Part shown: positions 8,677-18,545 of the stretch, piece after piece | Position numbering within the stretch: position 1 is the stretch's first letter | Layout: the number at the start of each line of letters is the position of its first letter | DNA from: Alicyclobacillus sp. | Lineage (GTDB): Bacteria > Bacillota > Bacilli > Alicyclobacillales > Alicyclobacillaceae | Length of the DNA stretch: 64,000 bases | Assembly (NCBI RefSeq): GCF_023511815.1 | Contig: NZ_JAIMAV010000001.1 | Coordinates: 1-64,000 of the forward strand | Direction: 5' to 3' | Translations under genes and position numbers: made by a program | Notes under the pieces: generated by a model | What the model was told of the DNA's origin: nothing | The model's database searches: none | Seen by the model: the letters and a program-made list of their open reading frames with translations, nothing else

Positions 8677-9162
8677 TCAGCATCCGCAGCTGGGTTGGCC
8701 GGTGCAACATGCCGACATGGCGGCGTTCGGCGTGGGATCAGAGGGGGCGCCGGTCGGTCCTGATTGCTCGGCGGTGCTCACTCGGTCGTCTTCCTGATTC
8801 AGCACGACGAATACTTCCCACCGATTTCCGTCCGGGTCGGTCACCCAGATCTTGTCTTGCAACGCATAGCAGCAGTTGGTGTGCATCTCGTCGAACGTGG
8901 CCAGGCCGGCGGCTTCAAGGCGCCGTTTGGCCGCGAGCACATCGTCGGTGGAGGAGACTTGGAGGCCGAGGTGGTTCAGCGCACCAAGCTGTTCGTACGG
9001 ACGTTCGTTCAGGGCGAAGTTGAGCGGGGGCGCGTCGACGTCGAACTTGGCGTAGCCGGGGCGGACGCGAACGGGATCGATCCCGAACAGGTTCCGGTAA
9101 AAGGCAAGCGACCGGTCCAGGTTGCGGACGTTGATGGCGACATGGGGCTTGAGTGCAGGCAC
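8677..9162 (-). CDS. arsI: ArsI/CadI-type dioxygenase, probable organoarsenical C-As lyase (161 aa)
   Basis: A VOC-fold protein matching ArsI: the metal ligands appear as His7 (PHVAINV), His64 (LNHLGLQV) and Glu116 (NRWEVFV), and the vicinal Cys97-Cys98 pair in MHTNCCYALQDK is the known trivalent-arsenic site of the family. ArsI uses iron and oxygen to cleave the carbon-arsenic bond of trivalent methyl- and aryl-arsenicals. The cysteine-rich tail SACCTGQPSCGC is an extra. GTG start behind AAGGAGGAG. It is the first gene of an arsI-arsR unit; no arsenite efflux pump is adjacent. The closely related cadmium-inducible CadI proteins are the alternative. Confidence 0.87.
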   Translation of the reverse strand: MPALKPHVAINVRNLDRSLAFYRNLFGIDPVRVRPGYAKFDVDAPPLNFALNERPYEQLGALNHLGLQVSSTDDVLAAKRRLEAAGLATFDEMHTNCCYALQDKIWVTDPDGNRWEVFVVLNQEDDRVSTAEQSGPTGAPSDPTPNAAMSACCTGQPSCGC

Positions 9163-12382: not shown

Positions 12383-12520
12383 TCATAGGGCCAGTTGGCG
12401 GTACCGGAATGCGAATACACCCATCGCAAACAGGACCACCGCGGCGACGAGCAGAGCCGGGCAGACGAGGATGAGATTCGCGTGGCCACGCGCGATGCCC
12501 TGGGGATCACCCAGGATCAG
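12383..12520 (-). pseudogene. C-terminal fragment of an ABC-2 permease
   Basis: The minus-strand frame ends in GDPQGIARGHANLILVCPAL followed by a membrane segment and FAFRYRQLAL. This matches the last 45 residues of the intact permease at 2954-3760 (NPQGIAHGEASLAMVCPVL and LAFQRRQMAL). Everything upstream of it has been replaced by the end of the DAHP-synthase-like gene, which overlaps it by four bases. It is the leftover of a second exporter gene. Confidence 0.8.
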
Positions 12521-13689
12521 GAGGAGTGCACCACGACCCCCTCCTTCCGGCACGCCTCCTCGTGAATGAGTGCCCACAGCGACGAGGTGAACGGAGCGCT
12601 CATGCCGAGCGCGGCGCCCGTCAACCGGTAGTTCATCTGGACCTGCGCTGCCCGGGCGGATTGGCGCACGGACAGCCCGCACCGCCGCTTGAGCGCGGCA
12701 ATCTCCTCGGCAATCCGGAACCGTTTCGCCAGGTGGCCGAGGATCTGTTCGTCGAGGCGATCGATCTGCCGCCGCAGCCGCATCATCTCAAGGTTCCAGT
12801 CCACGCCCGTTTGGGCGCTCGAGCCACCCCCATCATGGGCGGTCGATCCCGCACGCGCAACCCCATCCGCATCGGTGCTCGCGGGCCCACCTGAGCCGGC
12901 GCCGGCCGATGGGATGGGGCGGGCGGCGCGCCACCCAGGGTCCGGGTTCCAAAGAATCCCGTCGGCCCCCGCGGCCAGGGCGGCCCCGGCTAGGGCGGGG
13001 ACGTGGCGATGGCTGGCGGCGCCGGACACGGGGTCCGCGACGACCGGAAGATGCGTGAGGTCCTTGAGGTGCGGGAGGGCGGCGAGATCGAGCGTTGGGT
13101 GGGCGGCATCGAACGTGCGGACGCCCCCGTCGCACAGCACCACGTTCGGATTTCCGTGGGCCACGATGTATTCGGCCGCGAGCAGCCACTCCTCCAGCGT
13201 GGCAGACGGGCCGCGCTGGAGCAGCACCGGTTTGTCGCATCGGCCCACGGCTTTGAGCAGAGGGTAGTTCTGCATCTGATGCCGGCCGATCTCGAGCATG
13301 TCGGCGTACCGGCACAGCTGTGCCACCTCCGAGGGGGAGACGGTCTCCAGCACCACCGGGATGGACGCCCGCCGCACGGCTTGCGCGGCATCAAGGACCA
13401 CGTCGGTGGGGGCGGTTCGGTCGTGCGGAGAGGGTGAGGGCGGTGTGCGGGGAATGCGGAGCAGGTGCGCGCCGAGGTCCCGGGCCATGCGGGCCGCCTC
13501 CATCCCCTCGTCCGCCGATGCAAGATGCGCGAAGGAGGCGATGATCACCGGATTTCCGCCTCCAATCGGGACGGGACCCACGCGGATCACGCTCGGGCTC
13601 GCCTGATGATGCCAGCTGACCAGGCGATAGGCCGGTGCCTTCGAAAGAGATGGGGTTTGCGATGCGACCTCATACTTGTCGCCGTTCAT
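12517..13689 (-). CDS. DAHP synthase/chorismate mutase-like fusion with degenerate active sites (390 aa)
   Basis: Residues about 45-250 follow a type I-beta DAHP synthase and residues 297-382 an AroQ-class chorismate mutase, joined by a Gly/Ala/Ser-rich linker; the usual Bacillus order is reversed. The synthase fold is readable (DMLEIGRHQMQN, KPVLLQRGPSATLEEWLLAA, LKDLTHLPVVADP), but key residues differ: GPCS is SFAH (52-55), GARN is GRHQ, LLKRG is LLQRG (Lys to Gln158), CERG is CDGG, DPSH is DPVS, and the acidic ligands near the end are missing. In the mutase half the Asp and Glu of the DPxRE motif are Gln343 and Ala347. It is probably non-catalytic, perhaps a sensor or subunit, or in early decay. 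ATG behind GGGAGAGG, downstream of T-box elements. Confidence 0.8.
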   Translation of the reverse strand: MNGDKYEVASQTPSLSKAPAYRLVSWHHQASPSVIRVGPVPIGGGNPVIIASFAHLASADEGMEAARMARDLGAHLLRIPRTPPSPSPHDRTAPTDVVLDAAQAVRRASIPVVLETVSPSEVAQLCRYADMLEIGRHQMQNYPLLKAVGRCDKPVLLQRGPSATLEEWLLAAEYIVAHGNPNVVLCDGGVRTFDAAHPTLDLAALPHLKDLTHLPVVADPVSGAASHRHVPALAGAALAAGADGILWNPDPGWRAARPIPSAGAGSGGPASTDADGVARAGSTAHDGGGSSAQTGVDWNLEMMRLRRQIDRLDEQILGHLAKRFRIAEEIAALKRRCGLSVRQSARAAQVQMNYRLTGAALGMSAPFTSSLWALIHEEACRKEGVVVHSS

Positions 13690-13766
13690 GGCGGACCTCT
13701 CCCTTCATTCCGTTTGGACTGTGGCCGGATGGGGGGTCGATCCCGCCGGCCGCTCACAACACAACA

Positions 13767-13813
13767 CAAAACGCTCGTCCTGACAGGGACGAGCGTTGCC
13801 CGCGGTACCACCC
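13767..13813 (-). promoter_or_regulatory. Second T-box expression platform (antiterminator plus terminator) without Stem I
   Basis: On the minus strand the T-box core GGGTGGTACCGCG (13813-13801) is followed by a 10-base stem, ACGCTCGTCC with GGACGAGCGT (13796-13771), and a T-rich run. The roughly 150 bases between it and the first terminator contain no AGTA/GAAG specifier loop or AGAGAG bulge, so it lacks its own codon-reading stem. It ends 75 bases before the start codon of the DAHP-synthase-like gene. Confidence 0.8.
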
Positions 13814-13967
13814 TTCTGAAAGGCACTCACCAACGCGTCCGCAGGGTCGGTGTCGACGATGGCCCCGGCGGCGGGACGGTTCGGGGGCGGGGGCCCCCGC
13901 ACCCGGATTGCCGGATGGAACATCGCCGCGGCGGGATCGTCCTGTGAGCGGGATCGTCCCGTGAAAT

Positions 13968-14309
13968 GAAAAAACCCGCCCCTGTAGGGACGAGTTGATC
14001 TCGCGGTACCACCCTGCTGGAAGGCGCATGCCTTTCGCTTCATTGGGATAACGGAAGAGGGATCTCTTCCGGCGCTGGCTACTGGCCGAGGGGGGTAAGC
14101 GCATGGCGCCGACGCCCAAGGCGCCAGCCGTACAGGATGCCGAATCGGCGAAGGCACCGTCTTCGGCTGCGCCATTCCCACCACGGGTTCACCAGGCGGC
14201 TCCGGAGTGAACTTCCATCCATGGTCCGGGCCAGTTCGCACCGACCACTGGCTCTCTGCACCGGCCGCCGGATGTACTCTCTCCTTCATCGCGTTGGCAA
14301 AGATGAATT
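13968..14309 (-). promoter_or_regulatory. T-box riboswitch, predicted Phe (UUC) specifier
   Basis: A full T-box leader on the minus strand. Stem I shows AGTA (14278-14275), the AGAGAG bulge (14257-14252) and the loop-E partner GAAG followed by TTC-A, then CTCCGGAGC. The TTC at 14211-14209 is therefore the specifier for tRNA-Phe. The antiterminator core GGGTGGTACCGCG is at 14014-14002 and a terminator hairpin with a six-T run ends near 13969. Uncharged tRNA-Phe should favour readthrough towards the aromatic-pathway gene at 12517-13689. Specifier assignment rests on my alignment to the consensus. Confidence 0.85.
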
Positions 14310-14345
14310 TGTGACGATTATAATCACGTCGGGGAAGTCTGTCAA
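14294..14345. promoter_or_regulatory. Divergent promoters sharing a palindromic -10
   Basis: On the minus strand TTGACA (14345-14340), a 17-base spacer and TATAAT (14322-14317) form a consensus promoter for the T-box leader. The -10 lies in the self-complementary GATTATAATC (14316-14325), which also presents TATAAT (14319-14324) to the plus strand, with TTGGCA at 14294-14299 and a long 19-base spacer, facing the helicase gene. The two promoters cannot be occupied simultaneously. Confidence 0.7.
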
Positions 14346-14412: not shown

Positions 14413-17400
14413 TTGAAATCCGGGTTGTACGAGCAATTGGTCAACGAGATGTTGCACAGGGAGTTGGCGGACGCACGGCCGGAGCAGGTCATCAAGGAAG
14501 CGTTGGATGCAGAGGAATCGACCCAGGTGCTGGCGGATTATGTGGCGCACGTGTTGCGGTGGGGGCTCGCCCGGATCGGCGGTGAGACGGCGTTGGCGAA
14601 ACGGATGGACGTGTGCAATCGCCTGATCGCTTGGCTCGCCCGGCAGGTGGATGACGAAACCATGCTCGACTGGGCCATCCGCCCGGAGGCGGAGATGCTC
14701 CTGGCGCTGCTGGACGAGCGAAACTGCCTGACGGGGGCGGGCATCCGCGGAAAGGACGTGATTCGTCCTCTGACGTCGCTGGCGCATGGAACCCTGTTCA
14801 CGGGCGCTGTCCATGAGCCCAACCTGGTCGGAGAATTGAAAAAGGAGATCCTGACCGCGGATCGGGTCGACATGCTGGTATCCTTCGTGAAGTGGAGCGG
14901 GCTTCGGCTGGTGATGGATGAGTTGCGCCAACTGACCCTGCGGGGAACGCTCAGGGTCATCACCACGTCGTACATGGGGGCCACGGACGCGCGGGCGGTC
15001 GAAGAACTGAGCGGCCTGCCCAACACCGAGGTCCGCATCTCATACGACACCCGGCGGACGCGACTGCATGCCAAGGCTTATATCTTCCACCGCGACACCG
15101 GATTTTCCACCGCCTACGTCGGATCGTCGAATCTCTCCAGCGCGGCGCTGACCACCGGCCTGGAGTGGAATGTGAAGGTGACCGCGCGCGAACAACCGGA
15201 CATCTTCGAGAAGGTGTCGGGGACCTTCGAGACGTACTGGCATGACCCCGAGTTCGTGCCGTACTCGGACGCGCAGCGGCCCGTGCTGATCCGGGCGCTG
15301 AAGGCGGAGCGCGGGCGACAGGAGGAGGGGCCCGACGCGTTCCTGTTTGACATTCACCCCTACGCGTATCAACGGGAGATTTTGGAGAAGCTGCAGGCGG
15401 AACGGGAGGTGGGCGGGCGGTACCGAAATCTCGTGGTGGCCGCCACCGGAACCGGAAAGACGGTGATCTCGGCGTTCGATTACCGACGGTTTCGGGAGGC
15501 GCATCCGAATCGTCCCAACCGGCTTATGTTCGTCGCGCACCGCGAGGAGATCCTGCGGCAGAGTCTGGCGTGTTTTCGCACCGTCCTGCGCGATCCCAAC
15601 TTCGGCGACCTGTTCGTCGGCGGATCGGAGCCCCGTCAGATGGATCACCTGTTCGTATCCATTCAGACATACAACGCGAGGAATTTCCCACAATTCACCG
15701 ACCCGGACTTCTACGATTTCGTCATTGTCGACGAGTTCCACCACGCCGCGGCCCCGAGCTATCGTCGGCTGCTCGAGCACGTCAGGCCGAAGGTCCTGCT
15801 CGGGCTGACCGCCACCCCGGAGCGACACGACAACCGCGACATTCTCTCGTATTTTGACAACCGGATTGCGGCTGAAATCCGGCTGCCGGAGGCGATTGAA
15901 CGGGGGTTGTTGGTCCCGTTTCACTATTTCGGAGTGTCGGATGACGTGGACCTGAGCCGGTTGCGTTGGTCCCGCGGGGGGTATGACACGGCGGAACTGG
16001 ATCGCCTATACACCGGGAATCGTCGCCGAGCCCAGCTCATTTTACAATCCGTGAAGCGCTACGTGACGGACCTTTCGTCCGTTGTCGGGCTGGGATTCTG
16101 TGTCTCGGTCGATCACGCGCGCTTCATGGCCGACTTCTTCTCTCGCAACGGGGTCCCCTCCATGGCGGTGCACGCCGATACCCCGTCCGAGACGCGGCGG
16201 GACGTGCAGCGGCAATTGATCGAAGGCGCGCTGCGGTTCGTGTTCGTGGTGGACCTGTACAACGAGGGTGTGGACATTCCCGAGGTGAACACGATCCTGT
16301 TTCTCCGGCCGACGGAGAGTTTGACCGTGTTCCTGCAGCAATTGGGCCGAGGGCTCCGGCTGTGCGAGGGCAAGGCGTGTCTGACGGTGCTGGACTTCAT
16401 CGGTCAAGCGCATCGAAGCTACCGGTTTCAGGAGAAGTTCGCCGGGTTGTTGGCGGGATCGACCCGGGATTTCGAGCGGCAGATCCGCGAAGGGTTTCCC
16501 GATGTGCCGCGGGGCAGCTTCATTCAATTGGAACGGCAGGCGATGGAGTGGGTGCTCGCCAATGTCCGCTCCGCGCAGCGCCATCGTTCGGCCTGGGTGC
16601 GGTCCATCCAATCGTTTGAAGAGGAGACGGGTAAACCGCTGACCCTGGCGAACTTCCTCCATCACGTGGGGCTGTCGCCGCGAGCGTTCTATCGTCACAG
16701 GAACAGCTTCGCCCGACTGTGCGCGGAGGCGGGGCGGCGGGATGCGTTCGTGGAACCGGACGAGGCGGTGCTCACCAAGGCGCTGGTGCGGCTGGCGGGT
16801 ATCGACTCCCGTCGATGGATTGACTTTCTGATCAGGTGCCTGTGCGAAGAGGGGTGGACGGATGAGGCGTTGTCCGAGGAGGAGGGCGCCATGCTGCGCA
16901 TGTTTCACTACACGGTGTGGCAGAAGCCGCTGGAGCATCACGGATTCCGATCCTTGGCGGACAGCGTCGCCCGGGTGAGGCGGAATCCCGTGCTGGCACG
17001 GGAGATGGTGGAGCTGCTGCGGCATCGGCGGGACGGAATTGACTTTGTGGATGAACCGGTTCACTTGGGGTTTCCGTGTCCCCTCGATCTTCACTGCAGT
17101 TACACCCGAGACCAGGCATTGGCGGGGTTGGGCTTTTACACGGAAGCGCGCATGCCCGCAATGCGGGAGGGGGTGGTGCATCTGCCGGATCGAAACCTGG
17201 ACGTCCTGTTCATCACGCTCAACAAGGCCGACAAGGATTTCTCGCCGAGCACGATGTACCAGGACTACGCCATCAGCGACGTGTTGTTTCACTGGCAATC
17301 GCAGAACGCGACGTCGCCGGATTCGCAGACGGGTCGGCGGTATATCCACCACCGGGAGCAAGGCGGCCGGGTGGTGCTCTTTGTGCGTGAGTTCAAACAC

Positions 17401-17550
17401 GATGCGGCGGGATCCCTGCCGTACACGTACCTCGGGACGGCGGAGTACGTTCGCCACTCGGGCTCGCGCCCCATGAACATCGTCTGGCGGCTGCACCGTC
17501 CGCTTCCCGCGAAGCTGTGGCGGGAGACGAACAAGTGGGTGGTGGGGTGA
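14413..17550 (+). CDS. PLD nuclease-DEAH helicase-DUF3427 protein (1045 aa)
   Basis: Multidomain protein: an N-terminal helical region (1-130), a phospholipase-D-type nuclease module with one visible HKD motif (His219, Lys221, then GSSN near 237), an SF2 helicase core with Walker A ATGTGKT at 344-350, DEFH at 440-443, LTATPERHD near 462 and motif VI QQLGRGLR at 642-649, and a C-terminal DUF3427-type region whose end ([16 protein letters not shown]) is characteristic. TTG start at 14413 behind AAAGGGGAGAG; the long in-frame extension upstream overlaps the divergent promoter and T-box and is not coding. An Mrr nuclease gene follows after 83 bases, suggesting a role in DNA restriction or antiphage defence (inference). 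A deleted paralogue lies at 6734-8127. Confidence 0.93.
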   Translation: MKSGLYEQLVNEMLHRELADARPEQVIKEALDAEESTQVLADYVAHVLRWGLARIGGETALAKRMDVCNRLIAWLARQVDDETMLDWAIRPEAEMLLALLDERNCLTGAGIRGKDVIRPLTSLAHGTLFTGAVHEPNLVGELKKEILTADRVDMLVSFVKWSGLRLVMDELRQLTLRGTLRVITTSYMGATDARAVEELSGLPNTEVRISYDTRRTRLHAKAYIFHRDTGFSTAYVGSSNLSSAALTTGLEWNVKVTAREQPDIFEKVSGTFETYWHDPEFVPYSDAQRPVLIRALKAERGRQEEGPDAFLFDIHPYAYQREILEKLQAEREVGGRYRNLVVAATGTGKTVISAFDYRRFREAHPNRPNRLMFVAHREEILRQSLACFRTVLRDPNFGDLFVGGSEPRQMDHLFVSIQTYNARNFPQFTDPDFYDFVIVDEFHHAAAPSYRRLLEHVRPKVLLGLTATPERHDNRDILSYFDNRIAAEIRLPEAIERGLLVPFHYFGVSDDVDLSRLRWSRGGYDTAELDRLYTGNRRRAQLILQSVKRYVTDLSSVVGLGFCVSVDHARFMADFFSRNGVPSMAVHADTPSETRRDVQRQLIEGALRFVFVVDLYNEGVDIPEVNTILFLRPTESLTVFLQQLGRGLRLCEGKACLTVLDFIGQAHRSYRFQEKFAGLLAGSTRDFERQIREGFPDVPRGSFIQLERQAMEWVLANVRSAQRHRSAWVRSIQSFEEETGKPLTLANFLHHVGLSPRAFYRHRNSFARLCAEAGRRDAFVEPDEAVLTKALVRLAGIDSRRWIDFLIRCLCEEGWTDEALSEEEGAMLRMFHYTVWQKPLEHHGFRSLADSVARVRRNPVLAREMVELLRHRRDGIDFVDEPVHLGFPCPLDLHCSYTRDQALAGLGFYTEARMPAMREGVVHLPDRNLDVLFITLNKADKDFSPSTMYQDYAISDVLFHWQSQNATSPDSQTGRRYIHHREQGGRVVLFVREFKHDAAGSLPYTYLGTAEYVRHSGSRPMNIVWRLHRPLPAKLWRETNKWVVG

Positions 17551-17633
17551 TGGCTTGACAAAATATCTCGAGGAAACCAGGATGATTTTTAATGGATCAA
17601 TCCACGATGTCTTCAATCTGAGGGAGAGGTTCA

Positions 17634-18545
17634 ATGGCCATCCCAGATTACCAGAGTTTGATGCTGCCCTTGATGCGCCTTGCCGCCGATGAGGACGAGC
17701 ACCGATTGAGTGAGGCGGTCGAGACCTTGGCCGCTCAATTGGGGTTGACCTTGGAAGAGCGTAATGAACGCCTTCCCAGTGGCGTTCAGCCGAAATTTGA
17801 CAATCGGGTGGGCTGGGCTCGCACCTACCTCACGAAGGCAGGCCTGCTTGAGAGCACGGGACGCGGCAAGTTTCGCATCACCATGCGAGGGAAGCAGGTG
17901 CTTCGCGGCGAACCTGCGGTTATTGATGTGCAGTTTCTCAAACAGTTCCCGGAGTTTCTCGGTTTCATTGGAAAATCACAGGACCTGGGCGAGCACCGGG
18001 GGTCCGAGAGCGATCCCGAGGTAACGAGCACACCGGAGGAGGTTCTCGCCTCCAGCTACCTAGAGTTACGGCGGTCGTTGGCGCACGACCTGTTGCAGAG
18101 GGTCAAGCAGTGCTCACCGAAGTTCTTTGAGCGACTTGTTGTCGAGCTGGTCGTTGCGATGGGATACGGTGGATCTATTGAGGACGCTGGACGCGCCATT
18201 GGTCGGTCCGGAGATGGCGGAGTGGACGGGATTATCAAGGAAGACCGATTGGGACTGGATGTGGTGTATCTTCAGGCCAAACGGTGGGAGGGCACTGTCG
18301 GACGACCGGTGGTACAGGCTTTCGCGGGGAGTTTGGAAGGACACCGTGCCAGAAAGGGTATCCTCATCACCACTTCCCAGTTCTCGTCCGATGCTCAAGA
18401 ATACGTGACACGCATCGAAAAGAAGATTGTGTTGATTGACGGCGAACATTTGGCCAATCTGATGATAGACTTCAACGTGGGTGTGACCGAGGCCGCACGG
18501 TACGTTGTCAAGCGGATTGACAACGACTATTTCGACGAAGCATGA
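17634..18545 (+). CDS. mrr: Mrr-family type IV restriction endonuclease (303 aa)
   Basis: Full-length Mrr architecture. Residues 1-90 form the N-terminal winged-helix Mrr_N domain (PDYQSLMLPLMRLAADEDEH, then a LLESTGRGKFRITMRGK wing). The C-terminal PD-(D/E)xK nuclease has LLQRVKQCSPKFFERLVVEL, Asp198 in GDGGVDGII and Gln214-Ala-Lys216 in YLQAKRWE, the catalytic triad of the family. Mrr enzymes cut DNA with methylated or otherwise modified bases. The ATG follows GAGGGAGAGG. It is read in the same direction 83 bases after the PLD-helicase gene, a pairing that suggests joint action against foreign DNA, but each could work alone. Confidence 0.95.
   Translation: MAIPDYQSLMLPLMRLAADEDEHRLSEAVETLAAQLGLTLEERNERLPSGVQPKFDNRVGWARTYLTKAGLLESTGRGKFRITMRGKQVLRGEPAVIDVQFLKQFPEFLGFIGKSQDLGEHRGSESDPEVTSTPEEVLASSYLELRRSLAHDLLQRVKQCSPKFFERLVVELVVAMGYGGSIEDAGRAIGRSGDGGVDGIIKEDRLGLDVVYLQAKRWEGTVGRPVVQAFAGSLEGHRARKGILITTSQFSSDAQEYVTRIEKKIVLIDGEHLANLMIDFNVGVTEAARYVVKRIDNDYFDEA

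Follow-up and report, generated by a model that had tools for sequence, protein, structure and literature searches.

A DAHPS–CM fusion gene behind a T-box leader

The window, by which we mean the whole 64,000-nucleotide stretch of Alicyclobacillus DNA analysed here, carries on its reverse strand a gene in which a DAHP synthase (DAHPS) domain and a chorismate mutase (CM) domain are joined in a single open reading frame (Table 1). The protein matches Pfam DAHP_synth_1 (PF00793; 98 bits, residues 39–246) and CM_2 (PF01817; 54 bits against a cut-off of 27, residues 305–383), and the linker between the two domains, about 40 residues long, has a second-position GC content of 80%. The reading frame contains neither a stop nor a frameshift and starts at an ATG behind the ribosome-binding site GGGAGAGG. 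The fusion protein is known from one genome.

Table 1. Features of the fusion gene and its leader in the window
Feature	Position	Strand	Evidence
Fusion gene, almost certainly non-catalytic DAHPS + CM, 390 aa	12517..13689	-	ORF and Pfam
Barrel of type I-beta DAHPS (aa 21-252), lacking active site and last helix	12934..13629	-	motif alignment, AlphaFold, Foldseek
Gly/Ser/Ala/Pro-rich linker (aa 256-294), low-confidence, presumably disordered	12808..12924	-	pLDDT <50
AroQ-type CM domain (aa 298-390), three helices	12520..12798	-	Pfam CM_2, pLDDT, clade-invariant residues
Sigma-70 promoter TTGACA-17-TATAAT, 12/12 consensus	14317..14345	-	pattern match
Complete T-box leader, RF00230	13983..14298	-	99.7 bits vs gathering score 93
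Specifier codon UUC (Phe) in GAAG-UUC-A	14209..14211	-	T-box alignment position
First intrinsic terminator, competing with the T-box antiterminator	13973..13996	-	terminator scan
Second T-box sequence AGGGTGGTACCGCG and terminator, without recognisable Stem I	13770..13814	-	sequence and terminator scan
Ribosome-binding site GGGAGAGG ahead of ATG	13696..13703	-	read from sequence

The promoter is the sole exact match to its pattern within the 64-kb window, where 0.01 would be expected by chance. The T-box match that follows is full-length (model positions 1–219), with Stem I and its specifier, the T-box sequence, the antiterminator and the terminator all found, and its score bears out the T-box control proposed in the earlier note. 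The specifier position was set by the T-boxes of six other genes of the same genome, whose codons share one offset (pheS UUC, tyrS UAC, valS GUC, proB CCG, cysS UGC and ileS AUC). Judged by its sequence, the leader has an anatomy that would permit read-through from the consensus promoter when uncharged tRNA-Phe builds up.

Divergent from the T-box gene, a PLD-helicase-DUF3427 protein and then an Mrr-type nuclease are encoded on the forward strand (14413-18545), both being strong matches to PADLOC type IV methyl-directed restriction models. On the reverse strand, positions 8677-9162 encode a protein of glyoxalase fold whose tail, CCTGQPSCGC, is Cys-rich; it is reminiscent of organoarsenical lyases.

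The family operon and the distribution of the fusion

Elsewhere in the Alicyclobacillaceae, the DAHPS and CM genes are separate, adjacent or overlapping, and are preceded by one or two full T-boxes, whose specifiers are UUC or UAC. These pairs (L057-L066, L102-L106) match the fusion in both domains and in their order, and share with it the Phe/Tyr T-box, the Stem I-less antiterminator/terminator and the CM residue signature. They differ in consisting of two genes with an intact DAHPS, whereas the window has one fused gene with a dead DAHPS. Several relatives have two complete T-boxes; the window copy, like some others, retains one full unit together with the extra Stem I-less one.

This Stem I-less T-box sequence and terminator closes the leaders of 10/10 relatives and likewise that of the window (11/11 DAHPS/CM leaders examined). 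Its mode of action in these leaders (L057-L066 and window 13770-13814) is puzzling in view of the report that an antiterminator has hardly any affinity for tRNA when Stem III is missing (PMC7583486). In one relative (L065, genome G010), a further match to the Stem I pattern, which may be due to chance, lies about 640 bases upstream of the Phe Stem I in the same orientation as the DAHPS gene and has TGC where the specifier would be.

No orthologue of the fusion gene was found in 41 family genomes and no close homologue in a scan of genome contigs; two congeners of the window species lack the gene altogether. This distribution may reflect loss elsewhere or horizontal gain. The window's own genome has a second, intact DAHPS adjoining trpA and an AroH mutase nearby. 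The pathway is therefore not dependent on the fusion copy, and, with AroH present, the genome has another CM besides the CM half.

The DAHPS half has lost its active site

The barrel is clearly homologous to type I-beta DAHPS, with PDB relatives down to 3e-49 in addition to the PF00793 match. Its catalytic motifs are replaced (GPCS by SFAH, the GGAFKPR region by IPRTPPS, GARN by GRHQ, LLKRG by LLQRG, CERG by CDGG and DPSH by DPVS), including every one that the earlier note had named as lost, while 28 family homologues retain them with minor variants only, e.g. one GARN to GSRN. All four metal ligands are gone: Cys has become Ala, His has become Ser, the late Glu has become Asn, and the segment bearing the last Asp is missing, so that the late acidic ligands are lacking as had been claimed. 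The PEP/E4P motifs KPR, GARN, LLKRG and CERG are altered in 4/4 cases; the Arg preceding the GGA motif is retained. Together with the last ligand segment the last helix is absent, and the linker stands in its place.

Among the 86 columns invariant in the 28 homologues, 51 are kept in the window protein and 35 are lost, all ligand motifs among the latter; as a control, when each homologue was compared in turn with the columns invariant in the rest, at least 95% of them were kept. The DAHPS half scores 187 bits with TIGR01361, below the curated NCBIfam enzyme cut-off of 268. With these residues replaced, it is almost certainly non-catalytic. A frameshift or assembly artefact was ruled out, because the other reading frames hold none of the missing DAHPS motifs.

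The CM half follows the pattern of its clade

Gln343 and Ala347, the counterparts of Asp48 and Glu52 in the E. coli CM alignment, had been taken in the earlier note as losses of the CM half. Our scan of named genomes yielded 11 loci, all from Alicyclobacillaceae, with Gln in 11/11 and Ala in 10/11; relatives with an intact DAHPS have Gln in all cases and Ala in most. The absence of the Asp48/Glu52 pair is thus a feature of nearly the whole clade, and loss of both active sites was rejected. Across AroQ proteins, Asp48 and Glu52 are common, not universal (57% and 81%; PMC12329711), and in the characterised CMs listed in that study a glutamate fills the Glu52 role.

The remainder of the pocket is conserved. 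Its cationic residues Arg11, Arg28, Lys39 and Arg51 are kept as R306, R323, K334 and R346, and 16/17 clade-invariant positions are maintained. The active-site set R,R,K,Q,R,A,(A),E is that of the clade bar one position: Ala379 replaces the Ser or Thr (Ser/Thr84) that relatives carry, and is the sole active-site change peculiar to the window CM. The predicted structure has the three-helix fold (helices 298-336, 344-360 and 365-389), with block pLDDT values of 84-96 from residue 301. The CM half looks like a still-selected chorismate mutase. That it would be catalytic we infer from genome content; the lack of Glu52 in the CMs of this clade counts against it.

The genome content in question is that of the nearest relative (G003; 98% complete), where prephenate dehydratase is present and the AroH family is absent: the aroB-trpD gap, in which the window's genus has AroH, is contiguous and holds no AroH ORF (L098 5087-5446). 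No CM other than the fusion-type subtype was found in this genome. Because this subtype occurs there alongside prephenate dehydratase, its residue pattern is compatible with catalysis, and G003 appears to have no other chorismate mutase to rely on, a case that is good but short of proof. In another genome (G018, L100), which is only 82% complete, neither AroH nor CM_2 was found; together the two genomes point to a genus of Alicyclobacillaceae without AroH chorismate mutase.

The barrel appears folded and has changed mostly on its catalytic face

The AlphaFold model of the fusion protein has a mean pLDDT of 83 with all eight barrel strands present, and its barrel matches 1vs1 in Foldseek (TMt 0.80), although the underlying alignment was made up of relatives with intact sequences and may make the fold look better than it is. 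Using the strands and loops of the model, we separated the catalytic face from the rest of the barrel: 27/45 invariant residues are lost on the face versus 7/40 elsewhere (p=7e-5), and the seven changes in the scaffold are mostly conservative. The same contrast in nine operon sequences gave p=1.6e-4, and 0/222 slid masks matched it. Since the DAHPS losses are centred on the catalytic face, a folded barrel is favoured, and the barrel seems to stay folded.

Rates of change were compared in DAHPS and CM trees built from the same nine genomes. The branch of the window DAHPS half takes up 1.265 of a total length of 2.55 (other branches average 0.11), and that of the CM half 0.757 of 5.90 (other branches average 0.43). 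The CM half evolves at a normal rate; scaled by CM, the DAHPS half alone is suggested to be accelerated roughly tenfold. The earlier note had held that intact orthologues and relaxation of this copy would mean simple decay, a combination that we found in the DAHPS half only and not in the CM half.

Two arguments for selection on the DAHPS half were dropped. An open frame is explained by the downstream CM alone, and the excess of conservative substitutions, measured with an extant relative as reference, vanishes if about 20% of sites had diverged before the loss, in which case the changes look neutral. No orthologue with the same DAHPS losses was found, and selection is therefore not measurable by dN/dS.

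A starvation-induced chorismate mutase and its alternatives

We favour, with a probability of about 0.6, descent by fusion from the T-box-controlled DAHPS and CM operon of the family, which would have given rise to a CM induced by phenylalanine starvation and carrying a non-catalytic DAHPS barrel. Its source would have been the two-gene operon, DAHPS then CM, which Alicyclobacillaceae maintain under a Phe- or Tyr-specific T-box. Uncharged tRNA-Phe would lead to read-through of the leader and raise the level of the fusion protein; its CM half would draw chorismate towards prephenate, and the genome's other, intact DAHPS would perform the first step of the pathway. By analogy with Mycobacterium and Porphyromonas, the barrel may have been kept folded as a CM scaffold that supports dimerisation or substrate affinity. 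The earlier note's pseudoenzyme under tRNA-sensing control thus survives for the DAHPS half and the intact T-box, but not for the CM half with its clade-normal residues.

The DAHPS of Mycobacterium tuberculosis is a type II enzyme. Its complex with a small CM, which lacks conserved residues of AroQ and acts in concert with DAHPS (PMC7762937, PMC4281200), is non-covalent with an active DAHPS, whereas the window has a covalent fusion with a dead barrel. The Porphyromonas and Prevotella DAH7PS-CM proteins (PMC12202928) share with the window fusion the order of N-terminal barrel, linker and C-terminal CM, but both of their halves are active, and the Porphyromonas linker has 11 residues versus about 40. 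Bifunctional AroA of Listeria and Geobacillus (3nvt, 5j6f) likewise combines a type I-beta DAHPS with an AroQ CM; there, however, the CM is N-terminal and the DAHPS residues are intact.

Interdependence of DAHPS and CM has been published for such systems (PMC12202928, PMC7762937, PMC4281200). The barrel may support the CM because the CM Km rises about tenfold when the Porphyromonas fusion is split (PMC12202928) and the Mycobacterium CM requires DAHPS for full activity (PMC7762937). That the fused CM strictly requires the folded pseudo-DAHP synthase as a scaffold or as an allosteric activator we propose only tentatively, and regard as on balance doubtful; an allosteric partner role of the fusion protein is possible. 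We found no paper on a non-catalytic DAHPS in the open literature searched, whose coverage is incomplete, and none in the open literature on a T-box DAHPS/CM operon in Alicyclobacillaceae.

The CM-like domain of Bacillus subtilis DAHPS is regulatory. The presence of such a domain in that enzyme (PMC5526877), a clade CM without the Asp48/Glu52 pair and the retained scaffold residues would all suit a protein that is non-catalytic as a whole, its dead barrel pairing with the intact DAHPS and its CM-like half sensing chorismate or prephenate. Such a regulator is nevertheless unlikely, given that in G003, where prephenate dehydratase is present, no CM but the same subtype was found. We also consider it rather improbable that the DAHPS half is simply decaying and persists only through its in-frame fusion upstream of a selected CM. 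Its roughly tenfold acceleration, the neutral look of its changes under the 20% assumption and the missing last helix agree with a passenger of this kind, but the losses are not uniform, with 33/40 scaffold invariants kept.

Early decay of the whole gene, without function, had also been suggested in the earlier note. Two other species of the genus do without the gene and its DAHPS half is dead; yet a perfect promoter, a T-box above the gathering score, a good ribosome-binding site, a frame free of stops and frameshifts and a conserved CM half evolving at a normal rate fit poorly with decay, as does the clustering of DAHPS losses on the catalytic face. We regard it as very unlikely. A barrel remodelled to catalyse another reaction would likewise have its fold retained and its pocket replaced, but the barrel showed no recognisable pattern of a metal or phosphate site from another family and matched other families of the superfamily only weakly, making a new enzymatic function hardly credible.

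In DAHPS–CM complexes, the contribution of the barrel to the CM is hard to separate from the barrel's own chemistry. A natural dead barrel joined to a conserved CM would part both roles without mutagenesis. Along this route from operon to fusion, the enzymatic function of one partner is lost, whereas its regulation and the other partner persist. If the reading of the pseudo-DAHPS as a scaffold is true, the starvation RNA switch would have lost its control of pathway entry and would act on the branch-point enzyme alone.
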